Source of the DNA: an uncultured Kushneria sp.
GTDB lineage: Bacteria > Pseudomonadota > Gammaproteobacteria > Pseudomonadales > Halomonadaceae
Direction of reading: 5' to 3'
Assembly (NCBI RefSeq): GCF_947497025.1
Contig: NZ_CANMFC010000002.1
Span: 186,001 to 250,000 of the forward strand
DNA: 64,000 bases
This document shows positions 1 to 17,627 of the stretch, piece by piece (position 1 is the stretch's first letter; the number at the start of each line of letters is the position of its first letter). The position numbers and the translations under genes are program-made. The notes under the pieces are model-generated. The model had not been told where the DNA came from. It worked only from the letters and a program-made list of their open reading frames with translations, and made no database searches.

Positions 1-2
1 TA

Positions 3-2164: not shown

Positions 2165-2371
2165 ATCGTCTGGCAGCGCCATTGTGCAGATGGGTCGCCT
2201 CTGGTGGCGTTTTCTTGATCGGGTCTTGAACGTGGCCTGACCGTTGCATCATGTATGCCCTTTGGGGCTAATAAAAACAGTGGGTTATCTGGTTTCGGCG
2301 GATGGTATTTTCTTGATCGGGTTTTCATCGCCGACAGATAAAGCAAAAGGTTTCACTATGGGGGCAGGGGC
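2165..2371. repeat. Intergenic region with a 15-bp direct repeat (2210-2224, 2308-2322)
   Basis: This 207-bp gap between rhuM and hsdR carries two exact copies of TTTTCTTGATCGGGT, 98 bp apart. No ORF is convincing here. The purine-rich GGGGGCAGGGGC just before the hsdR ATG can serve as its ribosome-binding site. The repeats could be regulatory sites, or the footprint of a small duplication between the two genes. Confidence 0.6.
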
Positions 2372-5300
2372 ATGAGAAGCGATATCGGTCAGCGAGAGCG
2401 TCAGACCCAGCAGGCAGTGCTGCACTATTTTCAGGAAACGCTGAATTATCGCTACCTGGGCAACTGGAAGGATCGCGAGTCCAACCGCCCCATCGAAGAG
2501 ACGCTGCTGCGTGACTGGCTCAAGCAGCAGGGCCATGACACCGGTCTGATCGGCAAGGTGGTTCGCGAGCTGGATCAGGCGGCAGCCATTAGTGGCAGTA
2601 GAACCCTCTACGATGCCAACCGGGCGGTATACAGTCTGCTTCGCTACGGCGTGAAGGTAAAACCCTCGATCGACTCGCAAACGGTCACCGTCTGGCTGAT
2701 CGATTGGCATACCCCGGAAAACAACGATTTCGCTGTCGCCGAAGAGGTGTCAGTAAGCGGTCCGAGCGCCAAACGCCCGGATGTGGTGCTCTATGTTAAC
2801 GGTCTGGCGCTGGGGGTACTGGAACTCAAGCGCTCGACGGTTTCGGTCACCCAGGGCATTCGTCAGAACCTCGACAACCAGAAAGCCGATTTCATCCGCC
2901 CCTTCTTTGCAACCAACCAGTTGGTGATGGCGGGCAACCCCAGCGAAGGGCTGCGCTACGCCGTGATCGATACGCCAGAGAAGTACTGGCTCGAGTGGCA
3001 GGAACAGAATCCCGAGTGGTCGCCCCGGGCACCGGTCGAACCGAAAACGCTCGCCCCCTGGGATCAGGGTCCGCTGTCGAAACTGCATGAGCAACTGGGC
3101 TGGCTGTGCAACAAACCGCGCTTTCTGGAGATTCTGCACGACTTTATCGTCTTCGATGCCGGCATCAAGAAGACCTGCCGTCATAATCAGTACTTTGGCG
3201 TACGGGCTGCACGCGATTTCGTGCGCCGGCATGAAGGCGGCATTCTCTGGCATACCCAAGGCAGCGGCAAGTCGCTGACCATGGTGTGGCTGGCCAAATG
3301 GATTCGCGAGAACGTGGCCAATGCTCGCGTGCTGATCATTACTGATCGCACCGAGCTGGATGAGCAGATAGAAAAGGTTTTCAAGGGCGTCGATGAACAT
3401 ATTTACCGCACCCGTAGCGGTGCCGATCTGATCAGCGTTCTCGGCCTCGATAAAGAGTGGTTGATCGGCTCGCTGATTCACAAGTTCGGTGCCTCCGAGG
3501 AAGGCGATGTGGATGCCTTTCTTCAGGAGGTGCAGGGCAATCTGCCCGATGGATTCCATGCCAGGGGCAAACTTTTTGTTTTCGTGGACGAGTGCCACCG
3601 AACCCAGTCCGGCAAGCTGCACGATGCCATGAAGGCGTTACTGCCCGATGCGATGCTGTTGGGCTTTACGGGTACGCCGCTGCTCAAGGCGGACAAGCGC
3701 AAGAGCATCGAGGTCTTTGGTCCTTACATCCATACCTACAAATACGATGAAGCCGTACAGGACGGCGTTGTGCTTGATTTGCGCTATGAGGCCCGCGACA
3801 TCGATCAGCACGTAACGTCACAGGAGAAGATCGACCAGTGGTTCGAGGTCAGGACCAAGGGGCTCAACGATTACGCCCGCGCACAGCTCAAGAAACGCTG
3901 GGGTACCCTGCAGAAGGTTCTCAGCTCACGGGACCGGCTGGAAAAGATCGTCGCCGATATCCTGTGGGATATGGCGACTCGAGATCGTCTAATGAGCGGT
4001 CACGGTAACGCCATGCTGGCCGCGGGCAGCATTTACTCGGCGTGTCGGCTTTTCGAGATGTTTCAGCAGACGGAGCTGAAGGGAAAGTGCGCCATCGTGA
4101 CGTCCTATGTCCCTTCCACCGCCACGATCAAGGGGGAAACCACCGGCGAAGGTGAAACGGAAAAGCTGCACCAGTACGAGATTTACCGGCGTATGCTGGC
4201 CGCTCATTTTGACGAACCCATGGAAACGGCGCAGCACAAGGTAGAGACCTTTGAAAAAGAGGTGAAAAAACGTTTCATCGACGAGCCGGCGCAGATGAAG
4301 CTGTTGATCGTGGTGGATAAACTGCTGACCGGCTTCGACGCACCGCCGGCGACCTACCTCTATATCGATAAATCGATGCGCGATCACGGCCTGTTTCAGG
4401 CCATCTGCCGCGTCAATCGGTTACACAGCGAGGACAAGGAAGTCGGTTATGTAATTGATTACAAGGATCTGTTCAGATCGCTGGAGCAGTCCATCCAGGA
4501 CTATACCGGCGGTGCCTTCGATGCGTTCGACGCCGAGGATGTGCAGGGGCTACTGGAAGATCGTTTGGAAAAAGCACGAGAGCGTCTGGAAGAGACCCGC
4601 GAAGCGGTCAAGGCGGTTTGCGAGGGGGTAGAGCCGCCTGCGGACAGCGCCGCCTATCGGCGCTATTTTGTGGGGGCAAGCAACGACCCGACGCTTCAAC
4701 AGGAAAACGAGCCGCGCAGGCTGGCCCTTTACAAGCATGTTGGCGCCTTGCTGCGTGCCTGGGCCAATCTGGCCAATGAGATGGAGCAGGCGGGCTACAG
4801 CGAGGCCGAAGCGGCGACCGTGCGCGAGGAGGTCACCTACTATGAAAAGGTACGCGAGGAGATCAAGCTCGCCAGCGGTGACTACATCGACATGAAGCTC
4901 TATGAGCCGGCCATGCGACATCTTCTGGATACCTATATCCGCGCTGACGAGAGTGAGAAGCTCTCAGCTTTCGATGACATGACGCTGGTGGAGCTGATTG
5001 TCGAGCGCGGGGAAGAGGCCGTTGAGGCGCTACCAGAATCGATATCAGGTAATCAGGAGGCGATGGCGGAAACCATCGAAAACAACGTTCGTCGTCTGAT
5101 CATCGATGAAATGGCAGTAAACCCGAGATATTACGAAAAGATGTCCGAGCTGCTGGACGCGCTGATCGAACAGCGCCGCCAGCAGGCCATCGAATATCGG
5201 GAATATCTAAAAAGGGTTGTCGAACTGACACGCCAGACAACACAGCAGCAAGCAGACAAGCGCTACCCCGCAGGTATCGACACCCCGGCTATCAAGGCGC

Positions 5301-5512
5301 TGTATGACAATCTTGGCGAAAATGCGACATTGGCGATACGACTGGATGATCGTATTCGCTCGGTCAAAAGAGCGGACTGGCGTGACAACGCCTTCAAGGT
5401 GAAGGAGCTTCGTAACGCTGTCAGCAATTTCCTTGATGCCGAAGTACGCGAGCAGGGCGGCGCCGATATTGATACCGTCATGGCGCTGATAAAGGCGCAG
5501 CATGAATACTGA
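2372..5512 (+). CDS. hsdR: Type I restriction endonuclease subunit R (HsdR)
   Basis: Motor and nuclease subunit of the type I restriction enzyme; it translocates DNA using ATP and cuts at a distance from the recognition site. At 1046 residues it has normal family length. The N-terminal nuclease domain shows a PD...ELK motif: PDVVLYVNG near residue 135 and GVLELKRS near 150. The helicase core follows, with Walker A (HTQGSGKS) near residue 292, a DEAD-like box VDECHRTQ near 405 and motif III GFTGTP near 432. KLLTGFDAP and the arginine motif QAICRVNRL follow near residues 650-680. The C-terminal 300 residues are helical and would contact HsdM. All motifs look intact. The last 11 nt overlap the next gene. 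Confidence 0.95.
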   Translation: MRSDIGQRERQTQQAVLHYFQETLNYRYLGNWKDRESNRPIEETLLRDWLKQQGHDTGLIGKVVRELDQAAAISGSRTLYDANRAVYSLLRYGVKVKPSIDSQTVTVWLIDWHTPENNDFAVAEEVSVSGPSAKRPDVVLYVNGLALGVLELKRSTVSVTQGIRQNLDNQKADFIRPFFATNQLVMAGNPSEGLRYAVIDTPEKYWLEWQEQNPEWSPRAPVEPKTLAPWDQGPLSKLHEQLGWLCNKPRFLEILHDFIVFDAGIKKTCRHNQYFGVRAARDFVRRHEGGILWHTQGSGKSLTMVWLAKWIRENVANARVLIITDRTELDEQIEKVFKGVDEHIYRTRSGADLISVLGLDKEWLIGSLIHKFGASEEGDVDAFLQEVQGNLPDGFHARGKLFVFVDECHRTQSGKLHDAMKALLPDAMLLGFTGTPLLKADKRKSIEVFGPYIHTYKYDEAVQDGVVLDLRYEARDIDQHVTSQEKIDQWFEVRTKGLNDYARAQLKKRWGTLQKVLSSRDRLEKIVADILWDMATRDRLMSGHGNAMLAAGSIYSACRLFEMFQQTELKGKCAIVTSYVPSTATIKGETTGEGETEKLHQYEIYRRMLAAHFDEPMETAQHKVETFEKEVKKRFIDEPAQMKLLIVVDKLLTGFDAPPATYLYIDKSMRDHGLFQAICRVNRLHSEDKEVGYVIDYKDLFRSLEQSIQDYTGGAFDAFDAEDVQGLLEDRLEKARERLEETREAVKAVCEGVEPPADSAAYRRYFVGASNDPTLQQENEPRRLALYKHVGALLRAWANLANEMEQAGYSEAEAATVREEVTYYEKVREEIKLASGDYIDMKLYEPAMRHLLDTYIRADESEKLSAFDDMTLVELIVERGEEAVEALPESISGNQEAMAETIENNVRRLIIDEMAVNPRYYEKMSELLDALIEQRRQQAIEYREYLKRVVELTRQTTQQQADKRYPAGIDTPAIKALYDNLGENATLAIRLDDRIRSVKRADWRDNAFKVKELRNAVSNFLDAEVREQGGADIDTVMALIKAQHEY

Positions 5513-6221
5513 GATCGAGGTGAGCGGTATCCGCGTCGATATCCACCGCAAGCCAATCAAGAACCTCCATGTCGGTGTCTATCCACCGGACGGTCGCGTG
5601 CGTGTCGCGGCGCCCGAGCGCCTGGACGATGAAGCCGTGCGTTTGGCCATCGTCTCTCGCCTGAGCTGGATTCGTCGCCAGCGCCGTGGATTCATCGAGC
5701 AGACGAGAGAGTCAGCGCGCGAGATGGTGACCGGAGAGAGCCACTATTTTCGCGGCCGTCGATATCGGCTCAACGTTCTGGAACAGAGGACGCCCCCGGA
5801 CGTTCGGATCGCGGGTAGACATACGCTTGAACTACGTGTGCCTCCGGATAGCGAGACCCGGTATCGCCGCAACGTTCTTGAGCGCTGGCACCGTGATCAG
5901 CTGTATCAGGCGATACCCGATTTGATAGAAACCTGGTCACCCATCGTCGGTGTCGAGGTAGCAGAATGCAGGGTCAAGCGTATGAAAACACACTGGGGCT
6001 CCTGCAATATTGCAGCCCGACGCATCTGGTTGAATCTTGAGCTGATTCGCAAGCCACCCAAATGTTTGGAATACATTTTCGTCCATGAAATGGTTCATCT
6101 GCTGGAGCGCCATCACAATGAGCGTTTTCGCCGGCTGATGGATACGTTCATGCCGGATTGGCGCCTGCGCAAGGACGAGTTGAACAAGGCGCCGCTGGCT
6201 CATGAAAAGTGGGATTACTGA
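5502..6221 (+). CDS. YgjP/SprT-like M48-type zinc metallopeptidase (DUF45)
   Basis: A 239-residue predicted zinc-dependent peptidase. The zinc site is HEMVHLLERHHNERF around residues 195-209: two histidines and a catalytic glutamate in HExxH, plus a third ligand histidine just after. WGSCNIAARRIWLNLELI, typical of the YgjP/DUF45 family, precedes it. There is no signal peptide or membrane segment, so it should be cytosolic. It starts inside the end of hsdR (11-nt overlap) and is therefore part of the restriction operon. Genes of this family are commonly found beside hsdR, but their task there is not known. It could process or regulate a restriction subunit. Confidence 0.8.
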   Translation: MNTEIEVSGIRVDIHRKPIKNLHVGVYPPDGRVRVAAPERLDDEAVRLAIVSRLSWIRRQRRGFIEQTRESAREMVTGESHYFRGRRYRLNVLEQRTPPDVRIAGRHTLELRVPPDSETRYRRNVLERWHRDQLYQAIPDLIETWSPIVGVEVAECRVKRMKTHWGSCNIAARRIWLNLELIRKPPKCLEYIFVHEMVHLLERHHNERFRRLMDTFMPDWRLRKDELNKAPLAHEKWDY

Positions 6222-6404: not shown

Positions 6405-7265
6405 ATGACCTCGACCTTTTTGCGTGACGCCATGATCGAGCGCCTGGGGTCGGCGCGTACCGATCAAAACCCCGGCCCCTTCCCCCGTGACGGCCTGGTC
6501 AGAAACATCCACGGCGATTTCACCCCGATGATGTGCGGCGGTATCAGCGCGCTGTTGCTGCAGATGCTGCACCCGCTGGCGCTGGCCGGTATCTGGGACC
6601 ATTCGCGCTTTCGCGAGGACATGATCGGGCGGCTCAGGCGCACCAGTGATTTCATTGCCACCACCAGCTTTGGCACGTTCGAGCAGGCCGAAGCCGCTAT
6701 TGCCCGCGTGCGGCGGGTCCATGAGTACGTGAAGGGCCATGCTGCCGACGGTCGGCCCTACGCCGCCGATGATCCCGACCTGCTGGTGTGGGTCCATGTG
6801 GCCGAAATGAGCCGCTTTCTCACCGCGCACCTGCGCTATCGTAATCCACACCTGAGCCACACCCAGCAGGATCGCTACTTCTTCGAGACCGCCTGCATTG
6901 CCGAGGCACTGGGCGCACGCAACGTACCGGACAGTCGCGCCGCGGTAGAGGATTATTTCGCGCGGACGCGTCATGAACTGGTCTGTGATGCGCGCACCAG
7001 GGAGGTCATTGAGGTGTTGCTGGATGCCCCGCCGCGCAATCTCGTGCTGCGTCCGGCCGGGGCGCTGTTCATGCGCGCCGGCATCGATCTGTTGCCCGAC
7101 TGGGCTGGTGAAATCCTGGAATTGAAGATGTCGCGCCTGCAGCGACGCATGGTGCGCACCGGTATCAAAAGCGCGATGCCGATGATCAGTCGAGCGGTCC
7201 GAAGCGGCGCCTATCAGCGCACGCTGGTGCGACTGCAAAAAAATGACGGGCAAGCGAAGGGCTAG
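6405..7265 (+). CDS. MpaB/DUF2236 family oxygenase-like protein
   Basis: A 286-residue protein of the MpaB/DUF2236 family. Characterised relatives include the latex-clearing protein Lcp and the fungal MpaB oxygenase, so a haem-dependent oxygenase is possible. Family features seen: LLLQMLHPLALAGIWDHSRF near residues 48-65, a central WVHVAEMSRFL near residue 125, and an ISRAVRSGAY-like C-terminal region. No signal peptide is evident. It is a single gene between the restriction locus and the sugar cluster, and it converges on apnO. Substrate is unknown. Confidence 0.75.
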   Translation: MTSTFLRDAMIERLGSARTDQNPGPFPRDGLVRNIHGDFTPMMCGGISALLLQMLHPLALAGIWDHSRFREDMIGRLRRTSDFIATTSFGTFEQAEAAIARVRRVHEYVKGHAADGRPYAADDPDLLVWVHVAEMSRFLTAHLRYRNPHLSHTQQDRYFFETACIAEALGARNVPDSRAAVEDYFARTRHELVCDARTREVIEVLLDAPPRNLVLRPAGALFMRAGIDLLPDWAGEILELKMSRLQRRMVRTGIKSAMPMISRAVRSGAYQRTLVRLQKNDGQAKG

Positions 7266-7338: not shown

Positions 7339-8226
7339 TTACTCGGCGGTAGACACTGGCGCCGAGGTATCGCGGCGCACCTGGTCGATCCTGAGCATGC
7401 GCGCGATGACCCTGTCGAGCTCCTCCTGCTCGAAGATCTTCTTCCAGTCATCCTTGAGGATATTTTCACGTCCGTAGTCGATGGCGATCATGCAGGCATC
7501 CGAGAACGGGTTGGTGCTGCGAAACGCCACGGCCAGTGCAATCTGGATATGGCCGTAGAGCATCGCCTCGGCCGCCTCCCGGGCCACGCCGGTGCGCGCC
7601 ACCGTTTCATCCAGCGCTTCCTTCATGAAAGTGCCCACCATGCAGGCCACGGTCTCCACCAGCGTCGGCTCGAGATAGGCCAGCTGTGTGACGGTCATCC
7701 AGTGCACCTTGTCGACCGGGCCATACATCCGGCGAATCACCGTCTCAAGTGAGGCGCGCTCTGCCTCGCTGCCCTGTTCAAAGGCAGCCGCCACCGACTG
7801 TGTGGCGGCACTGCCGCCAAAGGCGTCGGCCCACTCTTCGTCGCTGCGACGCTCCAGAAACACCGACGGGTGGCAGGGGTGCGCGACGGCGTAGTGAATC
7901 TCGTCGCGCTGATGCAAAAGATTGGCATACGCCGCCGCCGGGTCCAGCGTGAGCACCGTGGCGCCGACCTTCATGCGCGGCACCAGCTGTGCGGAGACCC
8001 TGCCCAGCACGATGTCGGGTACGGCCAGAATCACCAGATCGCAGCGCTCGATGACCTGCTCGATGTCGCTGACCTCTCGCCCGAGTTCACGCATTGTCTC
8101 CTGCGCGGCGGGAGCATTTTCGCAGTAATAAATGTGGCTACTGCTGCCTTCAAGATTGGCCGAGATGCGCATGCCCATCTTGCCGCCGGCACCTACCAGC
8201 GCGATGTGCTGATACAGGTTATCCAT
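7339..8226 (-). CDS. apnO: D-apionate oxidoisomerase-like protein (6-phosphogluconate dehydrogenase-type fold)
   Basis: A 295-residue NAD-dependent enzyme. The N-terminal Rossmann motif is HIALVGAGGKMGMRIS near residues 7-21; the C-terminal helical domain is of the phosphogluconate-dehydrogenase type. PCHPSVF near residue 118 resembles the conserved catalytic region of the family. In the described D-apiose pathway, ApnO converts D-apionate to 3-oxo-isoapionate. The assignment rests on the fold plus the neighbours (TIM-barrel decarboxylase, lactonase pieces, Gfo/Idh dehydrogenase). The ribosome-binding site AGGAG lies inside the end of the upstream gene, and the two overlap by 8 nt, so they are coupled. 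A different hydroxyacid dehydrogenase remains possible. Confidence 0.6.
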   Translation of the reverse strand: MDNLYQHIALVGAGGKMGMRISANLEGSSSHIYYCENAPAAQETMRELGREVSDIEQVIERCDLVILAVPDIVLGRVSAQLVPRMKVGATVLTLDPAAAYANLLHQRDEIHYAVAHPCHPSVFLERRSDEEWADAFGGSAATQSVAAAFEQGSEAERASLETVIRRMYGPVDKVHWMTVTQLAYLEPTLVETVACMVGTFMKEALDETVARTGVAREAAEAMLYGHIQIALAVAFRSTNPFSDACMIAIDYGRENILKDDWKKIFEQEELDRVIARMLRIDQVRRDTSAPVSTAE

Positions 8227-9019
8227 GATGACTCCTTAAAAATGTCATGTTGTGACGGGTCCACTGCGCTTCCAGCGCACAGGTACTCGCTTCATCCTGC
8301 TGCCAGGGCAGCCAGTGTTCGATAATCTCGTTGATACCACGCGCCTCGGGGCTCACCGCCTCACGCATGGCCTTCAGCGGTAAAAGCCCGTCGCCCAGCG
8401 GGCAGCCGGTCAGCTGAAAGCCGACCCAGCCCGGCGCGCGCGAGAAGGCAAAGTCCTTGATGTGCAGATTGACCACCCGCGAAGCCGTGCGCGCGATGAC
8501 CATTTCGGGCAGCTCGAGTGCCGCCACACAGTTACCCGGGTCCAGACAGACCCCGATGTGCTCATCATCGATCGTCTCGATCACCTGCATCAGCGTCTCG
8601 ACGCTGACCTGCTCGTAGGTTTCGAGTGCCAGCGTGACCTGCTGCTGTCTGAGCGCCGGCAGGATCTTTTCGAGTCGCTGCAGGGCCTGCTCAAGCGTCG
8701 GGCGATCCTCCCCGGCATACAGCATGCTGCGAATCAGACGCACATCGAGCAGACGGGCCAGCGCCAGATAGCGCTCGAGATGCTCGGGCGCGATCCCGCG
8801 GGTGCCCAGCTCCAGCACGATATCCAGTGCGCGGGCCCGGTCGCGCAGCGCCGTGAGTCGCGACTCATCAAAGGTCTCGATCGCCGGGTAGTCACAGATC
8901 TGAAAGACCTTCCCACCCAGCGCGGCGGTCTCTTCCAGCATCGCCTCCAGCGTCATGGGCGTTTCGACCTGTTCTGATCCACGCCAGAAAAAGGCGTAGG
9001 TACTCAATCCAGTGGCCAT
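8219..9019 (-). CDS. oiaC: Sugar phosphate isomerase/epimerase-type TIM barrel, probable 3-oxo-isoapionate decarboxylase
   Basis: A 266-residue xylose-isomerase-like TIM-barrel protein. Likely metal-binding positions are in VTLALETYEQ (E near residue 152), CLDPGNC (D near 186), NLHIKDF (H near 211) and INEIIEHW (E near 247). This is the usual Glu/Asp/His/Glu set of the superfamily. In apiose catabolism, OiaC of this fold decarboxylates 3-oxo-isoapionate to L-erythrulose. Its coupling to the apnO-like gene makes that role the best guess. The MFS gene ends 21 nt upstream of its ATG, so all three are probably co-transcribed. No erythrulose kinase is present in the window. Confidence 0.55.
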   Translation of the reverse strand: MATGLSTYAFFWRGSEQVETPMTLEAMLEETAALGGKVFQICDYPAIETFDESRLTALRDRARALDIVLELGTRGIAPEHLERYLALARLLDVRLIRSMLYAGEDRPTLEQALQRLEKILPALRQQQVTLALETYEQVSVETLMQVIETIDDEHIGVCLDPGNCVAALELPEMVIARTASRVVNLHIKDFAFSRAPGWVGFQLTGCPLGDGLLPLKAMREAVSPEARGINEIIEHWLPWQQDEASTCALEAQWTRHNMTFLRSHHG

Positions 9020-9040
9020 GGGGTCTCGGGGGTAAAGGGG

Positions 9041-10399
9041 TCAGTGGGCATGGACGCCGCCAGGCATGCGCGCTCCCGAGTCGGGCCGGGGCACGCGGCT
9101 GATCGCCAGCATCAAAATCCCCGACATCAGCATCAAACCGCCAACCACGAACATCGGCACGGTGTAGCTGCCGGTCAGGTCATGGAGGGCACCGGTGAGA
9201 TAGCTCGACGAGAACCCGGCCATGTTGCCCACGGTGTTGATCAGCGCCACACCGGCGGCCGCCGCGGCACCATCCAGAAAACGCGTCGGCAGGGTCCAGA
9301 AGTTGGGCAGGGCGGCAAAGATCGAGCAGGCCGTCACGGTAATCACGGCCACGGTGGCGGCCGGGGAATCCATGTAAAGCGCCAGCGGAACACTTACGGC
9401 ACCGGTAAAGGCGGGCAGCGCGATATGCCAGCTGCGCACGCCGCGTCGGGTGGCATCGCGTGACCAGAGATAGAGCACGATGGCGGCCGGCAGATAGGGA
9501 ATCGCAGTGATCAGGCCCTTTTGCATCAGATCGAACCGGGTGCCGAACTGCGCTTCAAAACCGCCAATGATGGTGGGCAAAAAGAAGGCGAGTGCATAAA
9601 GCCCGTAGATGAAGCCGAAATAGATCAGCGCCAGCGTCCAGACCCGGCCGTTGGTAAAGGCCAGCTTCAGCCCCTGACGGCCGTGATCACCGCCGCTTTT
9701 CTCGCGGGATTCACGGGCCAGCTCCTCGGTCAGCCAGCGTTTTTCCTCCACGCTCAGCCAGCGGGCATCGGCCGGGCGGTCCACCAGATAGAACCAGGCA
9801 ACGATGCCCATGACGATCGCCGGGATGGCCACCCCGAAGAACATGAAGCGCCAGCCGGCCAGACCGAAAAAGACCCCGTCATGCTGAATGAGAGACGCCG
9901 CCAGCGGCGCGCCGATCACGGTGGTCAGCGGCTGGGCCAGGTAGAAAAGCGCCAGAATGCGACTGCGATAGCGCGCCGGCACCCAGAGACTCAGAAACAG
10001 GATCGCCCCCGGGAAAAAGCCGGCCTCGGCCACGCCGAGCGCAAAACGCAGCGCATAAAGCCCGTTAGCGCTGTCCACCCAGGTAAAGAGCAGGGCGACC
10101 ACGCCCCAGCTCACCATGATGCGGGCCAGCCACTTGCGCGCGCCGAAGCGATGCAGGGCCATGTTGCTGGGCACTTCCAGCAGGATATAGCCCAGAAAGA
10201 AGATGCCGGAGGCAAAGCCGAACTGCGCCGCACTCAGGGCCAGGTCGCTGTTCATGCCATTGGGGGCGGCAAACGAGATCGCGGTACGGTCGAGATAGTT
10301 GATGAAAAACATCAGGGCCACGAAGGGCACCAGGCGAATGGCGACCTTGCGAATGGCAGAAGCTGCCACAGCGTCATTGGGCGCGTGAGACATGATCAT
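9041..10399 (-). CDS. MFS transporter, anion:cation symporter (ACS) type
   Basis: A 452-residue inner-membrane carrier with about 12 membrane segments. ACS-family signatures: FFINYLDRTAISFAAP in the first segment, GYILLEVPSNMALHRFGARKWLARIM between segments 2 and 3, and a central cytoplasmic loop VDRPADARWLSVEEKRWL near residue 215. ACS relatives carry sugar acids and aromatic acids, so uptake of apiose, apionate or a related sugar acid fits the cluster. GGGAG lies 4 nt before the first ATG; the second Met (10393) is an alternative start. The gene has its own 162-bp upstream region with an operator-like motif. Confidence 0.85.
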   Translation of the reverse strand: MIMSHAPNDAVAASAIRKVAIRLVPFVALMFFINYLDRTAISFAAPNGMNSDLALSAAQFGFASGIFFLGYILLEVPSNMALHRFGARKWLARIMVSWGVVALLFTWVDSANGLYALRFALGVAEAGFFPGAILFLSLWVPARYRSRILALFYLAQPLTTVIGAPLAASLIQHDGVFFGLAGWRFMFFGVAIPAIVMGIVAWFYLVDRPADARWLSVEEKRWLTEELARESREKSGGDHGRQGLKLAFTNGRVWTLALIYFGFIYGLYALAFFLPTIIGGFEAQFGTRFDLMQKGLITAIPYLPAAIVLYLWSRDATRRGVRSWHIALPAFTGAVSVPLALYMDSPAATVAVITVTACSIFAALPNFWTLPTRFLDGAAAAAGVALINTVGNMAGFSSSYLTGALHDLTGSYTVPMFVVGGLMLMSGILMLAISRVPRPDSGARMPGGVHAH

Positions 10400-10409
10400 G
10401 TCACTCCCG

Positions 10410-10427
10410 CTGCCGTCTCAACGGCAG
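10410..10427 (-). promoter_or_regulatory. Small hairpin upstream of the MFS gene
   Basis: CTGCCGT / ACGGCAG form a 7-bp stem around a CTCA loop, just before the transporter's ribosome-binding site. It would lie in the 5' leader and could affect translation or mark an upstream transcript end. Confidence 0.35.
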
Positions 10428-10510
10428 TTAACCGGCATGAATGGGCAAAAGTCCTTCGCGGATGCGATCGACTTTATGAAAGCCTGGCCAGGCGAGGAGT
10501 GATCATCATC

Positions 10511-10521
10511 TCATCATACCA
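10511..10521 (-). promoter_or_regulatory. Candidate operator of the FadR-type regulator (copy 2)
   Basis: TGGTATGATGA on the minus strand, about 110 bp upstream of the MFS start. The same 11-mer occurs in the divergent region at 12508-12518, next to a palindrome. Two copies in two intergenic spaces of one cluster suggest a shared regulator site. Confidence 0.45.
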
Positions 10522-10561
10522 CTGGCGCAATACGACTCAGGTCGCATAGCGACGCAAAGGA

Positions 10562-11738
10562 TCACTCAAGCACCAGGCGCAACACCCCGAACGCCGGCAG
10601 CGGCATCGGTGCACCGGCAGCGGTTAAATGATCCATCCATGCCATGTCTTCCAGGTCGGTGTGCGCATCCAGCAGTGCCGCAGCACGTATGGCAACACCC
10701 TGTATCGCCAGACGGACCGGCTCGGTGGAGAGATTGGCCAGCCACAGCTCATCAAACGCCCCTTCGGGCGACTGCCAGCCCACGGCGGCCACGTTGGAAG
10801 GGGCGTCAGGGCAGACCAGCAGCGGCTGACCACCGCCGCGGATCAGTCCGCGCAGTACATGAAAAAGCGGGTACGGCACATGGCCTGCCATATCAAGGGG
10901 TGGTCCCAGCGAGGAGAGTGTCAGCGCCTTTACACCGCCTTCACCGGCGCGGGCGACCACGCCTGTCTGCCAGGCCGCACCGAACAGGGCGCGCTGGCGC
11001 GGGTCTCGATCGCCCGAGCGTGACGCGCTCATTGCCATCACTGGTCGTGAGCTGTTTGCCATAAGGGTTGGTCCACGCCCCGATCGCGCTGGTGGTCACC
11101 CGGTAGGGGCATCCCGGCGCCAGCGCCCGGGCGCTTTTGAAGATATGCGGCAGGCTTTCCAGCGTTTCCATCACCGAAACATCATCGGCGGCATGAACGA
11201 TCGGTGAGAGGGCATGGGTGATGAAATCGATGTGATCCGGGTCAGGACGGCAGCGGTTGAGTTCGGTGAAATACGTTGGAAAACCACCACCCAGCGCCAG
11301 AGCCGGCCAGTACTGGCGCGCTAGCGCCCGGACCATTTCAGGACCGGCACCGTCAGGCCAGGGGCCTTCGGGCTGATGGCTCTTGAGATAGGCACGCGGC
11401 GTGACCAGCATGCCGGCCGGTGACACGCCGGCCTCTTCAAGCCAGCTGGCCAGTCGGGCCAGGCCGCTCTCGGGCCCGTCATCGTCACAGATCACATATA
11501 GCCAGGGCGCCACGTCATGTGCACCGCAAAGTGTCATGACGGCATCAAGCCGCGTGCGGGCCTCCGGCAGGGCCACATCCAGCACAATGTCCAGATGATG
11601 CGGCTGCAGGGCCTTGAGATAGTGCTCGATGCGAGAAAACTCTACCTCGCGATCCAGCCACAGTCCGCAGCCGATCAGCGGTAAGCAGCGGTCTGAAAGC
11701 AGGGCAGGCGTGCACCGATGAACGTCAGCGAGCGTCAT
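10562..11738 (-). pseudogene. apnL: Lactonase (apnL-like), middle and C-terminal part, frameshifted
   Basis: Two overlapping frames make up one protein. The first (11738 to about 11015) runs from MTLADVHRC through a TIM-barrel-like domain to GAWTNPYGKQLTTSDGNERV; the second continues as DRDPRQRALFGAAW to the stop at 10562. The change of frame falls at the CCC triplet at 11013-11015 (GGG in the sense strand). Removing one G gives a continuous VTLGDRDPRQR reading. It is therefore a one-base insertion or a sequencing error. The start at 11738 has a good AGGAG 7 nt upstream and overlaps the N-terminal piece by 14 nt. Together the pieces resemble D-apionate lactonase ApnL, which opens the lactone made by ApsD. 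Confidence 0.6.
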
Positions 11739-12438
11739 GGTCGTTCTCCTCAAGCTGGATCGACAATTCCTGCATCACCGTCTCACCGGCTTCGATCACA
11801 TAGGGCGTGGGCCAGGCCAGCGGGCGGCTGTAGATCTTGAAGGAGGCATCCGACCAGTTGCGCTGGTCCTCCATCTCGAACACCTCACCCTTGAATGACA
11901 GCCGGACGGCAGGCCCGTGCAGCGGGGTGTAGCCAAGCCTTTTGATATCCCAAAAGGGCTGGCCGGGGCTGATGCGTTCGGGAAAGCGTGACGCTCTTTC
12001 AGTGTCATCGCCGTGGGTAATCTGCACGGGGTGACCAACCACGCCGTCAAGGGGCAGCAGCACGATCAGTCCACTGCGACAGGTGGCAAGGGTTCGAGCC
12101 GCCGTCAGGGTCAGAAACATCTCGACACCGCAGGCACTGATGTGCGCTTCAAATCGGCCCGACAGTGCACGCTCGCCCGTCTCAAACTCATGGATCAGCT
12201 GCAGGCTCCCTGGATGAGAGGTGACATGCTCGGTCACGGTTACGAGGTTGTGCGTGCCCCACTGGTCGTCGCGAATGACCGGGCGGACGCCGCGCACGCA
12301 TTCAATACCGCGGTAGCAAAGCGTGCGCAGGGCGCCGGCCTGACGGTGAAACGACAGCGCTCCCACGGCGTGATGCGTGATCGGTGGCTCGGCCAGCGCC
12401 GTGCCGTAATGCCGTTTCCCCCAGCAGCTATCGTCCAT
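11725..12438 (-). CDS. apnL: Lactonase (apnL-like), N-terminal domain, separate frame
   Basis: A beta-rich domain of about 237 residues that looks like the N-terminal part of ApnL-type lactonases: LCYRGIECVRGVRPVIRDDQWGT near residues 35-60, then VFEMEDQRNWSDASFKIYSRPL near 190. The reading frame stays open to an ATG at 12507, but that start lies in the operator-like palindrome and has no ribosome-binding site. GGGAGAG 4-5 nt before the ATG at 12438 makes that start more likely. It ends in TGA at 11725, inside the start of the next piece. Either the ancestral single gene suffered another +1 frameshift, or it is a split version translated by coupling. Confidence 0.55.
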   Translation of the reverse strand: MDDSCWGKRHYGTALAEPPITHHAVGALSFHRQAGALRTLCYRGIECVRGVRPVIRDDQWGTHNLVTVTEHVTSHPGSLQLIHEFETGERALSGRFEAHISACGVEMFLTLTAARTLATCRSGLIVLLPLDGVVGHPVQITHGDDTERASRFPERISPGQPFWDIKRLGYTPLHGPAVRLSFKGEVFEMEDQRNWSDASFKIYSRPLAWPTPYVIEAGETVMQELSIQLEENDHDAR

Positions 12439-12507
12439 TTCTCTCTCCCACACAGAAGCGCTGGTATCGAGCATAGTGACAGGAGGGGCCAGCCGATATG
12501 CGACCAT

Positions 12508-12526
12508 TGGTATGATGACATCATCA
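12508..12526. promoter_or_regulatory. Candidate operator of the FadR-type regulator (copy 1)
   Basis: TGGTATGATGA (12508-12518) overlaps a perfect palindrome TGATGACATCATCA (12513-12526; 6-bp arms, 2-nt centre). It lies between the divergent lactonase and dehydrogenase genes. FadR/GntR-family proteins bind short palindromes of this kind. The 11-mer recurs before the MFS gene. Confidence 0.5.
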
Positions 12527-12593
12527 CTACTACCGGCCTAAATGGACCGATAAGCGTGCCCTACCGGCCGCCGGGAACAGCGTGGGAGAGCCA

Positions 12594-12632
12594 CATGAAG
12601 GGAGAAACAACATGAAGGGAGAAACAACATGA
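12594..12632 (+). repeat. 17-bp tandem repeat carrying ribosome-binding site and start codon before apsD
   Basis: CATGAAGGGAGAAACAA is repeated with period 17 at 12594 and 12611, and a partial third copy at 12628 contains the apsD start. Each copy has an ATG and a GGGAG. The ATGs at 12595 and 12612 open two mini-ORFs encoding MKGETT, each ending in TGA that overlaps the next ATG. Because 17 is not a multiple of three, the three ATGs lie in different frames. Confidence 0.8.
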
Positions 12633-13651
12633 AAGGTGCCCTGATCGGCTGCGGCTTTTTTGCCGAAAACCAGATGAAGGCGTGGCAGTCGCTGCCGGAA
12701 GTGGACATCGTGGCGGTATGCGATCCGGACCCGGTGCGGCGTGAGTACTTTCAGACAAACTTTGACGTGGCCCGCACCTTTGCCGAGGCTCAAACCCTTT
12801 TCGAGCAGTGTCGGCTCGATTTTGTCGATATCGCCGCCCCCACACCGGCCCATGATTCGCTGGTCAGACTGGCCGCCGATCACGGCGTGGCCATCATCTG
12901 CCAGAAACCCTTTGCCGGATCCCCCGATCGGGCGAAGGCCCTGATTCAATACTGTCTGCAAAAGGGCGTTGGCCTGAGCATTCACGAGAACTTTCGCTGG
13001 CAGTACGCCGTGCGCGAGGTGATCCGACGGGTCCGTAATGATGAGATCGGCACGCCCTTTTTCGGGCGCATCAGCTATCGCAACGGCTTTGATGTCTATC
13101 AAAGCCAGCCCTACCTGGCCCACGTCGAGCGCTTTATCATCGAGGATCTGGGCATTCATGTACTCGATATTGCCCGCGCGCTCTTTGGCAATGTGCGCCG
13201 GCTGAGCTGCGAGACGAGCCGCGTGAACCCGGACATTGCCGGCGAGGACGTCGCTACCATGATGCTGCGCCACGACAGCGGCACTACCTCGGTGGTCGAT
13301 TGCAGCTACGCCACGCGTCTCGTCCCTGACCCCTTCCCGCAGACGCTGATCGATATCGACGGTTCCCGCGGCTCGCTGCGTCTGATGGCAGACGCAACAC
13401 TGTATATCCACACCCCTGACGGTTGTGTCGAGCATCACGTAACGCCACAGGCGCCGGACTGGAGCACGCCGCCCTGGACCATCATTCAGGACAGCGTGGT
13501 GGCCTTTCAGACCCACTGGCTTGAATGTCATCGCGCAGGCGTTGAAGCCGATACCTCGGGCAGGGACAATTACAATACGCTGGCACTGGTAGACGCCGCC
13601 TATGAGGCGGCTGCCCATCATACGGTCATGACGCCAGAACGCTGGTCATGA
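12629..13651 (+). CDS. apsD: Gfo/Idh/MocA-family oxidoreductase, probable D-apiose dehydrogenase
   Basis: A 340-residue NAD(P)-dependent dehydrogenase. The N-terminal Rossmann fold has GALIGCGFF near residues 3-11; the family motif with the catalytic lysine is CQKPFAG near residue 92. HENFRWQ near 117 and the IEDLGIHVLDIARALFG helix near 171-188 complete the active-site pattern. ApsD of this family oxidises D-apiose to the lactone, the first step of the oxidative apiose route. The assignment rests on the linked lactonase, oxidoisomerase and decarboxylase candidates. It is divergent from them and followed 27 nt later by the regulator. A dehydrogenase for another sugar is the alternative. Confidence 0.6.
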   Translation: MKGALIGCGFFAENQMKAWQSLPEVDIVAVCDPDPVRREYFQTNFDVARTFAEAQTLFEQCRLDFVDIAAPTPAHDSLVRLAADHGVAIICQKPFAGSPDRAKALIQYCLQKGVGLSIHENFRWQYAVREVIRRVRNDEIGTPFFGRISYRNGFDVYQSQPYLAHVERFIIEDLGIHVLDIARALFGNVRRLSCETSRVNPDIAGEDVATMMLRHDSGTTSVVDCSYATRLVPDPFPQTLIDIDGSRGSLRLMADATLYIHTPDGCVEHHVTPQAPDWSTPPWTIIQDSVVAFQTHWLECHRAGVEADTSGRDNYNTLALVDAAYEAAAHHTVMTPERWS

Positions 13652-13678
13652 CGTGTTCGATACAAGGAAATCGCTTCG

Positions 13679-14392
13679 ATGCTTCCAACCTCCGACGAGC
13701 CGATTCGACGGCGCAAGCTTTCCGACGAAGTGCTGGACAGACTGCTGGAAGAGATTCGCGGCGGGGCGCTGCGCCCGGGCGATCAGCTGCCGCCCGAACG
13801 CGAGCTGATGACCCGCTTCGGCGTCGGGCGTCCGGCCGTTCGCGAAGCGATGCAGAGTCTGGCCTCACGGGGGCTGATCACCATTTCCCACGGTGAGCGT
13901 GCCCGCGTCAGCGAGTTCAGCGTCTCCTCAATGATCGATCAGTTCGATACCACCGCGCGACTGCTGCTGTCAGGCGCCGAGGAGAACATCAGCCATCTCA
14001 TACAGGCACGCCTTTTTTTCGAAACCGGCATGGTGCGCATGGCCGCGGCCCGGGCCACACCCGAGGATATCGCCCACCTTGAATCACTGATCGACGAGAT
14101 GGCAAAACAGCCCACCGGGGCAGCCTTTATCGATTGTGACATGGCCTTTCATCATGCGATTGCCGACATGACCGGCAATCCCATCTTCGCGGCGACCGCC
14201 CGGGGCATGCTGCACTGGCTCAAGGACTATCACGCCGCAATCGTCAGCTTTCAGGGCGCCGAGGACGTCACCCTCAGGGAGCATCGCGACATCGTGCATT
14301 ATCTCGGCATCCATGATGTTGAAGGCGCCGCGCGCGCCATGGGCAATCACCTGACCCGCGCCAGCGAACTTTATCGACAGCGCCTCGATTAG
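13679..14392 (+). CDS. FadR/GntR-family transcriptional regulator
   Basis: A 237-residue regulator. The N-terminal winged helix covers residues 12-75, with LRPGDQLPPERELMTRFGVG and RPAVREAMQSLASRGLI. An FCD ligand-binding domain follows (residues 90-230), with metal-ligand-like residues in DMAFHHAIADMTGNP, EHRDIVHYL and MGNHL. It is probably the local regulator of the apiose-type cluster, binding a pathway sugar acid and controlling the two promoters that carry TGGTATGATGA. It follows apsD closely and is probably co-transcribed with it. Confidence 0.85.
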   Translation: MLPTSDEPIRRRKLSDEVLDRLLEEIRGGALRPGDQLPPERELMTRFGVGRPAVREAMQSLASRGLITISHGERARVSEFSVSSMIDQFDTTARLLLSGAEENISHLIQARLFFETGMVRMAAARATPEDIAHLESLIDEMAKQPTGAAFIDCDMAFHHAIADMTGNPIFAATARGMLHWLKDYHAAIVSFQGAEDVTLREHRDIVHYLGIHDVEGAARAMGNHLTRASELYRQRLD

Positions 14393-14421: not shown

Positions 14422-15321
14422 TTACGCCGGCGCCGTCAGTTCATGCCGCAGCCACGCCGCCAGCTGCTCGCCGCTTTGCTGGGACGTACCGCGTCCCAGC
14501 AACAGACAGAGCCTTGCATCGGTGTCGACAAACCCCCAGGGCGCCACCAGCCGGCCGCTGTGCAGATCGCCCTCGATCACCAGTCGCGGCGCGATGGCCA
14601 CCCCCAGGCCCGCCAGCGCCGCCTCCAGCAGATAGTAGAGATGTTCAAAGCGCTGGCCGGTCTGGCGAGCCCTGTCCAACGCCGCCTCATCGAGCCCGCA
14701 GGCCTTTGCCCACTGTGGCCAGGCCTGAAGACGCGAGGTGGTCTCCAGAATGGTTTCCTCGAACAGCGCGTCAGGCGGGCGCTGCGTCAGTCGTGCGGCA
14801 ATGCCGGGCGACGCCACCGCGCCGATACTCTCGGCGGTGATCTCGATCACCTGAATATCGGAAGGCCATGGCGGGGCAATAAAGGCCAGTGCCGCGCTGA
14901 TATCGCCGCGCCTGGGGTCGGGCTCGCCGTCGCTGGCCAGCACGTTGAGTCTGAGTGTGGGCAGCTCGCGGTGCAGCCGATCCAGCCGCGGAATCAGCCA
15001 GCGCGCCAGCAGACTGCCCGGGCAGGCCAGCGTGAAGGGCGCGCCCTTGATCTCGCGGCTCAGGGCACGACAGCTCGCGCGCAGCGTGGTAAAGGCCTCG
15101 CTGACGCCGGCATGCAGCTGGCGGCCATGGCGGGTCAGGACCAGACCCCGTCCGGCGCGTTCAAACAGGGTGGCGTCAAAATGTGCTTCCAGTGCACGAA
15201 TCTGACGGCTGACCGCCCCATGCGTGACGCTCAGCTCCTGGGCCGCGGCCGTGACACTGCCCAGCCGGGCGGCGGCTTCAAAGGCCTTGAGCGCATTAAG
15301 CGGCGGTAGGGATTCCGGCAT
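14422..15321 (-). CDS. LysR-family regulator divergent from trpBA (TrpI-like by position)
   Basis: A 299-residue LysR regulator with an N-terminal helix-turn-helix (PLNALKAFEAAARLGSVTAAA, residues 7-60). The substrate-binding domain starts near residue 92. The PPLNALKAFEA start is typical of the GcvA/TrpI branch. In pseudomonads, TrpI is encoded divergently from trpBA and activates it in response to indoleglycerol phosphate; the same arrangement is seen here, so the role is likely but not proven. The 135-bp gap to trpB would carry the shared control region. Confidence 0.75.
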   Translation of the reverse strand: MPESLPPLNALKAFEAAARLGSVTAAAQELSVTHGAVSRQIRALEAHFDATLFERAGRGLVLTRHGRQLHAGVSEAFTTLRASCRALSREIKGAPFTLACPGSLLARWLIPRLDRLHRELPTLRLNVLASDGEPDPRRGDISAALAFIAPPWPSDIQVIEITAESIGAVASPGIAARLTQRPPDALFEETILETTSRLQAWPQWAKACGLDEAALDRARQTGQRFEHLYYLLEAALAGLGVAIAPRLVIEGDLHSGRLVAPWGFVDTDARLCLLLGRGTSQQSGEQLAAWLRHELTAPA

Positions 15322-15477
15322 AAGGTGTGAGTTTTCCTCAATGATTGAAGCGAATTAATCGATGTTATACCGCGCCCTGAACTGTCACGATAGGGCCATC
15401 ATCGATGTTCGCATTGATATCCATTTCATGAGTTGGTGCGTTCATGACCAACCTTCATGACGGACAGGGAGATCACC

Positions 15478-16806
15478 ATGTCGTCTGCTACTGATTCCAC
15501 CACGCGCTTTTCAAGGGGCCCGGACGCCAACGGCTTCTACGGCGATTTCGGCGGCCGCTTTGTCGCCGAAACCCTGATGCCCCTGATTCTCGAACTCGAG
15601 GAGGCCTGGGAGTGGTCACGTACCGATGAGGCCTTTCGCCGCGAGCTTGAAGGCTATCAGCGCGACTACATCGGCCGCGCCACGCCGCTGTACTACGCGC
15701 AGCGCCTGACCGAACATCTGGGCGGGGCGAAGATCTACTTCAAGCGCGAGGATCTGAACCATACCGGCGCGCACAAGATCAACAACTGCATCGGTCAGAT
15801 CCTGCTGGCCCGCAAGATGGGCAAGCGTCGCATCATCGCCGAGACCGGTGCGGGCATGCACGGCGTGGCGACCGCCACGGTGGCGGCACGCTTTGGCATG
15901 GAGTGCGTGATCTACATGGGCGCCACCGACATCGAGCGCCAGCAGCCCAATGTCTTTCGCATGAAGCTTTTGGGCGCCGAGGTCATCCCGGTCGAATCCG
16001 GCACCGGGACGCTCAAGGACGCCATGAACGAGGCGCTGCGCGACTGGGTCACCAACGTCGACTCCACCTTCTACCTGATCGGCACGGTCGCCGGTCCGCA
16101 TCCCTATCCGGCGATGGTGCGCAACTTCCAGTCCGTGATCGGCCGTGAAACCCGCGAGCAGATTCTCGAGAAGGAAGGGCGCCTGCCGGACACGCTGATG
16201 GCCTGCATCGGCGGCGGCTCCAACGCCATGGGGCTCTTCCACCCGATGCTCGATGACGACAGCGTCCACATGATCGGCGTGGAAGCGGCCGGTCACGGCA
16301 TCGAGACCGGCGAACACGCGGCGAGTCTCAACGGCGGAGAGCCGGGCGTGTTGCACGGCAATCGCACCTTTTTGCTGCAAAGCGTTGACGGTCAGATTAC
16401 CGATGCCCACTCGGTCTCGGCGGGGCTGGACTATCCCGGCATCGGCCCCGAACACGCCTGGCTGCATACCCAGAAGCGCGTTGAATACGTCTCGATCACC
16501 GATCACGAAGCGATCGAGGCCTTCAAACTCTGCTGTGAACTCGAAGGCATCATTCCGGCGCTGGAGTCGGCGCACTCGCTGGCCCATCTCAAAAAGATTG
16601 CGCCCGGTCTGCCCGGGGATCATCTGATCGTGCTCAACATGAGCGGGCGTGGCGACAAGGACATGGCAAGCGTTGCCAACTGGCTCGAGCAGCACGGCGA
16701 TACCGACAAGCTGCCGAACACCACGGTCGAGGCCGCCGAGCCCGGCCGGATTGATGACATGCAGCCGCCGCATGATGTGGCGAAAAAGACCGGGGAGACC
16801 GAATAA
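15478..16806 (+). CDS. trpB: Tryptophan synthase beta chain
   Basis: Condenses indole with L-serine to tryptophan in the TrpAB complex. At 442 residues it is slightly long for the family because of a C-terminal extension of about 30 residues rich in Asp/Glu/Pro. The PLP lysine is in HTGAHKINN (K100), the phosphate loop is [10 protein letters not shown] near residue 243, and the loop GAGMHGVA is intact. An ATG also exists at 15457, but AGGGAG 6 nt before 15478 supports the later start. The stop overlaps the trpA ATG by one base, so the pair is coupled. Confidence 0.95.
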
Positions 16807-17627
16807 TGGCCACACGTATTACTCGCCGCCTTGAGGCATTGAAGGCAGAAGACCGTGCGGCGCTGGTCACCTTTACCATGGCCGGTGATCCGAACTATCA
16901 GGCCTCGCTCGACACGCTCAAGGGCCTGCCCGGGGCCGGTGCCGACATCATCGAGCTGGGCATGCCGTTCACCGATCCGATGGCCGACGGCCCGGCGATT
17001 CAGAAGGCCGCCCTGCGGGCGCTGAAAGGCGAGCACACCCAGCAGAAAACGCTCGAGATGGTGCGCGAGTTTCGCCGCGAGGATCAGGACACGCCGATCG
17101 TATTGATGGGCTATTACAATCCCATCTACCGCTACGGCGTCGAGGCCTTTTTGAAGGATGCCGGTGAGGCCGGCATCGACGGGCTGATCGTGGTGGATCT
17201 GCCGCCGGAGCATGACAGCGAGCTGTGTCTGCCGGCGGCGCGGGCCGGGATCGACTTCATTCGTCTGGCCACACCGACCACCGATGACAAGCGCCTGCCG
17301 CGGGTGCTGGAAAACACCTCGGGCTTTATCTATTACGTCTCGGTGGCCGGTGTCACCGGCACTGCCGCCCCCACGCCGGAAAGCGTCGAGCGCTCGATCA
17401 CGCGCATTCGCGCCCATACCGACCTGCCGATTGCCGTGGGCTTTGGCATTCGCAGCGCCGAACAGGCCGCGGCCATCGGTCGTTTTGCCGATGCCGTGGT
17501 AGTGGGATCGGCCCTGATCAGCTGCATCGAGCAGGCCGACAGCGTGGAGGCCGGCACCCGGGACGTTCATGCGCTGGTGCGTGAGCTCTCAAAAGGCGTG
17601 CGCAGCGCGCGCCTGACACCGGCCTGA
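16806..17627 (+). CDS. trpA: Tryptophan synthase alpha chain
   Basis: Cleaves indole-3-glycerol phosphate to indole and glyceraldehyde 3-phosphate, and channels indole to TrpB. It is a 273-residue TIM barrel. Catalytic residues are E49 (DIIELGMPF) and D60 ([11 protein letters not shown]). [12 protein letters not shown] near residue 120 and GFGIRSAEQ near 215 are the usual loop and phosphate-binding motifs. It is the second gene of a two-gene operon; trpEDCGF are not in the window. Confidence 0.97.

Follow-up and report, generated by a model that had tools for sequence, protein, structure and literature searches.

A candidate OiaC-type D-apiose cluster in Kushneria, with a lactonase encoded by two genes and a predicted acid carrier

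Introduction

A compact cluster of divergent genes in an uncultured Kushneria raises the question of which branched sugar its host degrades, by which route and starting from which compound. The cluster lies at positions 7339-14392 of a 64,000-nucleotide stretch of DNA (hereafter the window; G000:C2:186001-250000) in a 3.53 Mb genome of the genus Kushneria. We propose, with a probability of roughly 0.7, that it encodes the OiaC branch of oxidative D-apiose breakdown and that four features mark it: a lactonase divided over two genes, a carrier of the acid type, erythrulose-type genes located elsewhere and one lactonase subunit broken in this genome. These four features set it apart from the oxidative D-apiose pathways that Carter et al. 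2018 reportedly described, which it resembles in that a single cluster brings together ApsD-, ApnL- and ApnO-type enzymes with a candidate of the OiaC type.

Apiose occurs in plant cell walls and glycosides (according to excerpts of PMC6302742 and PMC11747546). A Rhodobacteraceae strain carrying an ApsD-ApnL-ApnO-OiaK-OiaX set grows on D-apiose (excerpt of PMC11747546), and a different apiose route, involving a kinase and transketolases, is treated for E. coli (excerpt of PMC13001218). Among the open-access papers listed by our literature searches, none reports a split apionolactonase, or apiose together with Kushneria or Halomonadaceae, and we make no claim beyond them.

In the proposed scheme, ApsD would convert D-apiose to D-apionolactone, a two-subunit lactonase (ApnLn and ApnLc) would open this to D-apionate, ApnO would turn D-apionate into 3-oxo-isoapionate and the OiaC TIM barrel, probably metal-bound, would decarboxylate 3-oxo-isoapionate to L-erythrulose. 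An unlinked kinase with TIM-type and RpiB-type isomerases would take L-erythrulose to D-erythrose 4-phosphate, the MFS carrier would import D-apionate and a FadR-family regulator would exert control at a palindrome between the two arms. The names ApsD, ApnL, ApnO and OiaC thus stand for likely roles, and the reactions, the two-subunit assembly, the carrier's substrate, the pairing of regulator and operator and the growth phenotype are all predictions.

Results

The cluster and its enzymes

The cluster has two divergent arms: the leftward arm holds the lactonase genes, the MFS carrier, the TIM barrel and the ApnO-like protein, and the rightward arm a Gfo/Idh/MocA dehydrogenase and a GntR/FCD regulator. 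The observed genes, their order and the candidate sites are as follows.

7339-8226, minus strand: ApnO-like protein, D-apionate oxidoisomerase candidate (PGDH_C PF16896, 1.2e-61; PDB 5t57, 2.8e-64; 69% identity with the Pantoea sp. At-9b ApnO-like protein)
8219-9019, minus strand: OiaC-like TIM barrel, 3-oxo-isoapionate decarboxylase candidate (AP_endonuc_2, 2.2e-18; weak match to PDB 8z1i, 0.0038)
9041-10399, minus strand: MFS carrier, predicted D-apionate importer (MFS_1, 4.5e-42; TIGR00893, 269.6 bits, cut-off 395)
10501-10521, plus strand: second palindrome-like site, 5' of the carrier gene (15/21 to the symmetrised motif)
10562-11062, minus strand: ApnLc C-terminal part, in a different frame from the preceding part (NF049900, 1.3e-7, profile 483-593)
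10941-11738, minus strand: apnLc, second lactonase gene (presumed TIM-barrel part), frame-broken (NF049900, 2.2e-44, profile 273-487; alignment with three congeners)
11725-12507, minus strand: apnLn, first lactonase gene, N-terminal part (NF049900, 2e-52, profile 5-233)
12508-12528, minus strand: candidate palindromic operator within the divergent promoter region (18/21 to the motif)
12629-13651, plus strand: ApsD-like Gfo/Idh/MocA dehydrogenase, D-apiose dehydrogenase candidate (GFO_IDH_MocA, 1.2e-18; PDB 5uhw, 5.9e-108, residues 1-331)
13679-14392, plus strand: GntR/FCD regulator, FadR-family, NanR-like (GntR, 3.1e-20; FCD, 3.7e-24; NF003011, 288.4 bits, cut-off 260)

A preliminary description of this DNA had linked the Gfo/Idh/MocA dehydrogenase, a 6PGDH-type enzyme, the TIM barrel, the MFS carrier and the FadR/FCD regulator; domain matches agree, and the set is kept in relatives. 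Its single lactonase-like protein gave way to three separate reading frames, each aligning with a successive segment of the ApnL model, which rules out a lactonase made as one protein.

The ApsD-like protein carries PF01408, PF22725 and PF02894 and has one outstanding solved relative (5uhw, 5.9e-108, the next reaching 1.9e-15), which we take to be ApsD under a generic depositors' name; 5t57, also generically named by its depositors, is presumably ApnO. Compared with OiaK/OiaX-type loci, the ApsD-like protein is 50-53% identical to the dehydrogenases and the ApnO-like protein 38-44% identical to its counterparts. In the OiaC candidate, residues E133, D160, H186 and E234, which we take to be metal ligands, are invariant in all 12 rows of alignment A3, and the barrel probably binds metal. 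The candidate is linked to ApnO and erythrulose-type genes in two Pseudomonas, in Pantoea and in Erwinia.

Directly before the ApsD start lie two tandem 17-base units (12595-12628), each a purine-rich stretch plus an ATG, present as one copy in K. phyllosphaerae and G005; they could modulate ApsD translation.

A lactonase in two overlapping genes

Against the ApnL model NF049900 (length 595), the frames at 11725-12507, 10941-11753 and 10562-11062 cover positions 5-233, 273-487 and 483-593, respectively, at 178.6, 152 and 30.6 bits; the curated cut-off of 750 bits is missed, so that we class the lactonase as ApnL-like rather than as the equivalog. ApnL proteins above the cut-off are single polypeptides encoded by single frames (7 genomes), whereas here there are two genes. 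Profile searches found ApnL matches in 5 of 10 genomes from the genus, 13 of 275 from the family, 2 of 369 from the class and 15 of 398 from the phylum. Of the 13 Halomonadaceae genomes, 12 have a match that breaks in two near profile position 235-240, and G183 (S. rhizosphaerae) has one frame instead. The two-gene form is also observed in two loci of Salinisphaera and two of Pseudomonas; named genomes were scanned with two peptide patterns, which is not exhaustive. L132 (in G818), a weak match to the N part alone that has none of the cluster genes, was set aside ahead of counting.

In each of the 11 split relative loci examined, the start (ATG) of the second gene lies across the stop of the first, the overlap measuring 4 nucleotides in seven loci, 11 in two and 14 in two, and in the window apnLn and apnLc overlap by 14 nucleotides, with GAGGAG 5' of the second start. 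We infer that ApnLn and ApnLc form a two-subunit lactonase from translationally coupled genes. The ApnLc profile has no matching solved structure. Decay as the origin of this first junction is ruled out by the overlap kept in 11 of 11 loci and by the two genes in Salinisphaera and Pseudomonas. That both lactonase junctions, including a second one specific to this genome, reflect decay of a pseudogene shared by the whole clade is barely credible: the ratio of non-synonymous to synonymous substitution rates (dN/dS) is indeed higher for ApnL, which outpaces its neighbours in change (0.24-0.35 for ApnLn, 0.04-0.09 for ApnO), but it stays well below 1, and relatives from four bacterial families keep both genes open, with the overlap retained in 11 of 11 loci.

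A maximum-likelihood tree of the ApnL C-terminal part (16 rows of the split form and 16 of the fused form, the window's row being only the part before the frame break) needs two state changes, both forced by well-supported branches. Given rooting among the other fused proteins, these would correspond to one split and one re-fusion (S. rhizosphaerae), and we propose that one branch of ApnL was ancestrally encoded by two genes.

The split lactonase and the OiaC route

The OiaC candidate (E ≤ 1e-40) is present in 15 of 275 Halomonadaceae genomes, including all 13 with ApnL, and ApnL and OiaC occur together in 17 genomes (13 Halomonadaceae, 2 Salinisphaera and 2 Pseudomonas), 16 of them with split ApnL. 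No OiaC homologue (E ≤ 1e-10) was found within the fetched 18-21 kb of 15 fused-ApnL loci from 14 other genomes. In these fused-ApnL loci outside the clade, an OiaK homologue above 340 bits is found in 9 of 15 (L056, L118-L124 and L126), an OiaX homologue above 340 bits in 8 of 15 (L056, L118, L119, L122-L124, L126 and L131) and at least one of the two in 10 of 15, with neither exceeding 340 bits in L125 and L127-L130. The OiaK and OiaX references came from Aliihoeflea and are named by homology (OiaX 431.8 and OiaK 432.6 bits, below the 700-bit cut-offs; the ApnL there reaches 733.2 of 750). The sole OiaK match in OiaC-type relative loci is at 70 bits and 28% (L047). Split ApnL thus appears to go with the OiaC route rather than with the RuBisCO-like route.

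Loci of the OiaK/OiaX type (for example Aliihoeflea L056 and the cluster of strain LCG007, the latter from an excerpt of PMC11747546) resemble the Kushneria cluster in their ApnL and ApnO homologues and, in many cases, ApsD; they differ in that their ApnL is fused, OiaK and OiaX homologues are present and no OiaC homologue was found in the fetched stretch. Beside the Aliihoeflea apiose locus, a second ApnO-like gene (L056:1098-2802, 33% identical to the window's) adjoins another sugar-isomerase-like gene. The ApnL homologues of L125, L127, L128 and L129 have no ApsD, ApnO or OiaC homologues nearby and no strong OiaK or OiaX matches, and some adjoin ABC carriers; they are perhaps lactonases for another sugar.

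Erythrulose-type genes elsewhere on the contig

The preliminary description found no erythrulose kinase nearby, which is correct for the neighbourhood and does not extend to the genome, where candidate genes lie on the same contig. Genes for a Dak kinase, a TIM-type protein and an RpiB-type isomerase stand together at G000:C2:504400-507735, about 304 kb from the cluster and near a transketolase gene, which rules out reading the missing kinase as a hole in the pathway. The kinase matches NF011049 at 764 bits (cut-off 492) and is 66% identical to its Pantoea counterpart, the TIM-type protein 55%; the set is found in 10 of 10 Kushneria genomes, unlinked to the cluster.

Linked arrangements occur in other genera. 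In both P. japonica and Pseudomonas sp. JUb42, OiaC directly follows the tail of a Dak-type kinase gene, whose remainder falls outside the locus, and RpiB-type and TIM-type genes; a ribose-type ABC carrier is present as well. Plasmids of Pantoea sp. At-9b (L133) and Erwinia sp. E602 (L134) carry rpiB, an MFS gene, dihydroxyacetone-kinase-family and triose-phosphate-isomerase-family genes and OiaC-like and ApnO-like genes. These plasmid modules resemble the Kushneria cluster closely (57-58% identity for the OiaC candidate, 69-70% for the ApnO-like protein and 69% for the MFS carrier) and differ in three respects: their kinase and isomerase genes sit within the module, their regulator is a different one, and the stretch contains no homologue of ApsD or ApnL. 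LerK, LerI and DerI convert L-erythrulose to erythrose 4-phosphate (excerpt of PMC10733421), and the window's genome likewise has Dak-type kinase, TIM-type and RpiB-type isomerase genes together; unlike that system, the Kushneria set is predicted from sequence, occurs also in Kushneria without OiaC and may serve erythritol or threitol.

Two further observations concern the surroundings of such genes: the kinase/isomerase locus L116 has a gene for a SorC-type sugar-binding regulator (Pfam Sugar-bind), and an ABC binding protein encoded at G000:C2:512862-513749, about 5 kb from the kinase locus of the window's genome, is 46% identical to the one of the Pseudomonas apiose locus. The L116 kinase locus and this binding protein perhaps represent an erythritol or threitol system. 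Relatives of the Pseudomonas binding protein (44-47%) are found in 9 of 10 Kushneria genomes, including three without OiaC, and the protein therefore does not settle how apiose enters the cell.

A conserved palindrome between the arms

The regulator exceeds the cut-off of the NanR subfamily NF003011 (288.4 versus 260 bits). An imperfect 21-base palindrome between the arms (12508-12528) scores 18/21, and its conservation is observed in the other searched Kushneria, Salinicola, Halotalea and Salinisphaera loci at 16-18/21; the symmetrised motif was itself derived from the window and these relatives, so the scores there are not independent. The carrier-side site (10501-10521, 15/21) scores at chance level, yet one of 15-16/21 stands at the matching place in most relatives; shuffles of the 64 kb gave best scores of 14-16/21, so that lone sites of 15-16 mean little. 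Weak sites also occur in the fused-type loci L056 (16), L118 (15) and L124 (15). A 17-base core, searched with at most one mismatch in 10 Kushneria genomes, hit six sites, five of them at OiaC clusters (G000, G001, G003, G005 and G008) and one elsewhere in G009; it missed the clusters of G006 and G009 and gave no site in G002, G004 or G007, and a reversed control gave none. The G001 site was found before its OiaC gene, about 90 bases away, was known. The half-site resembles what we take to be the GGTATA-type operator of NanR. The palindrome between the arms is the probable site of action of the FadR-family regulator, although shared motif letters do not prove FadR binding.

A frame break in the second lactonase gene

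Among the genus and family genomes compared, the middle and C-terminal ApnL parts are observed in different frames solely in this genome. The apnLc gene shifts frame once, about 240 codons in, within a short single-base run, leaving 265 codons versus 391 in K. phyllosphaerae, with no further stop. A conserved programmed frameshift is ruled out, as G003, G005, G008 and G009 (three of them aligned) read through in one frame. Before and after the break, dN/dS is 0.18 and 0.19 against K. phyllosphaerae, 0.25 and 0.28 against G005 and 0.22 and 0.29 against K. indalinina; intact relatives compared with each other over the same parts give 0.22-0.35. Because the values are alike and purifying on both sides, either selection acted on apnLc until recently or the break stems from an error.

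The latter alternative, in which a sequencing or assembly error hides a whole two-gene lactonase and full D-apiose catabolism, is a serious one, to which we give slightly less than even odds. The single shift in a one-base run, the lack of a later stop and dN/dS values against K. phyllosphaerae no higher than those among intact relatives all fit an error; the remaining cluster is intact, however, and a congener, G006, has lost its front end. Because apnLc is frame-broken, we predict that the strain uses D-apionate, and D-apiose poorly or not at all, barring another lactonase or spontaneous ring opening.

Carrier and loss of the front end

The MFS carrier shares 69% identity with its counterpart in the Pantoea module, which lacks ApsD and ApnL; because that module starts at the acid, the Kushneria carrier probably imports D-apionate. 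Carriers vary among relatives: the K. indalinina locus has a TRAP carrier and no MFS, and none of the three carrier types was found in the S. halimionae stretch. Import of D-apiose itself is unlikely. It would fit the absence of an apiose-type ABC binding protein from the Kushneria and Salinicola stretches with ApsD and ApnL, where the MFS is usually the sole carrier, but not the 69% identical MFS in the Pantoea and Erwinia modules, which have neither ApsD nor ApnL, the presence of both MFS and ABC carriers in Halotalea or the retention of the MFS in G006 after loss of ApsD and ApnL.

Two Kushneria genomes, G001 and G006, have OiaC without ApnL. G006 keeps its MFS, OiaC, ApnO and FadR-type genes, together with a 68-codon frame that corresponds to ApsD residues 286-339; G001 has ApnO, OiaC, FadR-type and TRAP genes at the same site, and we assume that it lost its front end rather than never had one. 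The lactonase is thus frame-broken in G000, deleted with an ApsD stump in G006 and absent in G001. Tentatively, and with the odds somewhat against it, slightly more so because the break here may be an assembly error, we suggest that Kushneria are shifting from D-apiose users to D-apionate specialists, repeatedly losing lactonase and ApsD while the back end (carrier, OiaC, ApnO and FadR-type regulator) stays.

Genomic setting

In 9 of 10 ApnL-bearing Kushneria and Salinicola relatives, the cluster is flanked by homologues of the window genes at 14422-17627 and 6405-7265, which we take to be LysR-trpB-trpA and DUF2236; K. sinocarnis differs, and the S. socius cluster is spread over two contigs. 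G+C is about 0.62 in the cluster and 0.52 at window positions 1-2000. The region at 63-6221 holds what are presumably type I restriction-modification-like specificity and restriction subunits, a RhuM-like gene and a small metal-protease-like gene. No Rfam family reached its gathering score in the 64-kb window.

Discussion

Several observations run against the D-apiose reading. The NCBIfam scan gave the cluster proteins no OiaC, ApnO or ApsD name. None of the 275 Halomonadaceae genomes reaches the 750-bit cut-off of NF049900, even the fused S. rhizosphaerae protein scoring 395.2. No motif site of at least 15/21 was found at the two Pseudomonas, Pantoea and Erwinia loci or at the erythrulose loci L116 and L117. 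The RpiB-type protein misses the D-erythrulose-4-phosphate isomerase model NF051858 (169.6 of 240 bits), and the kinase set is present in three Kushneria genomes without OiaC and so need not have evolved for the apiose route. Each of these counts against assigning the cluster to the OiaC branch of D-apiose breakdown. As for the OiaK/OiaX route, no OiaK or OiaX was found among the cluster proteins, and none above 70 bits in OiaC-type relative loci, the window's whole genome not having been searched for either.

We consider it distinctly improbable that apiose-type proteins with shifted substrate serve another branched or hydroxymethylated sugar acid instead. The entire split clade falls under the ApnL cut-off, and MFS or TRAP acid-type carriers stand in for the sugar ABC carrier in Kushneria and Salinicola, as this alternative would have it; yet the same enzymes in Pseudomonas, Salinisphaera sp. 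Q1T1-3 and Halotalea adjoin an ABC binding protein 55-59% identical to that of OiaK/OiaX-type apiose loci, and the dehydrogenase shares about 51% identity with the one in such loci. The suggestion in the preliminary description of a related branched sugar acid was correct in part, since both the carrier and the back end found on its own point towards import of an acid, with D-apionate as the simplest candidate. Its route from ApsD through ApnL and ApnO to OiaC and L-erythrulose is the best-supported reading, the four enzymes being linked to erythrulose-type genes and an ABC carrier in two Pseudomonas; it needs amending for a lactonase that is split and frame-broken here and belongs to a group missing the ApnL cut-off even when fused.

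The D-apiose reading predicts which strains would grow on apiose and which on apionate only, and ties the split ApnL branch to OiaC rather than to the RuBisCO-like route. The short motif between the arms may flag the apiose pathway in unannotated genomes of these families. If Kushneria are indeed becoming apionate specialists, this would imply a natural pool of free apionate, made by other microbes or formed extracellularly.

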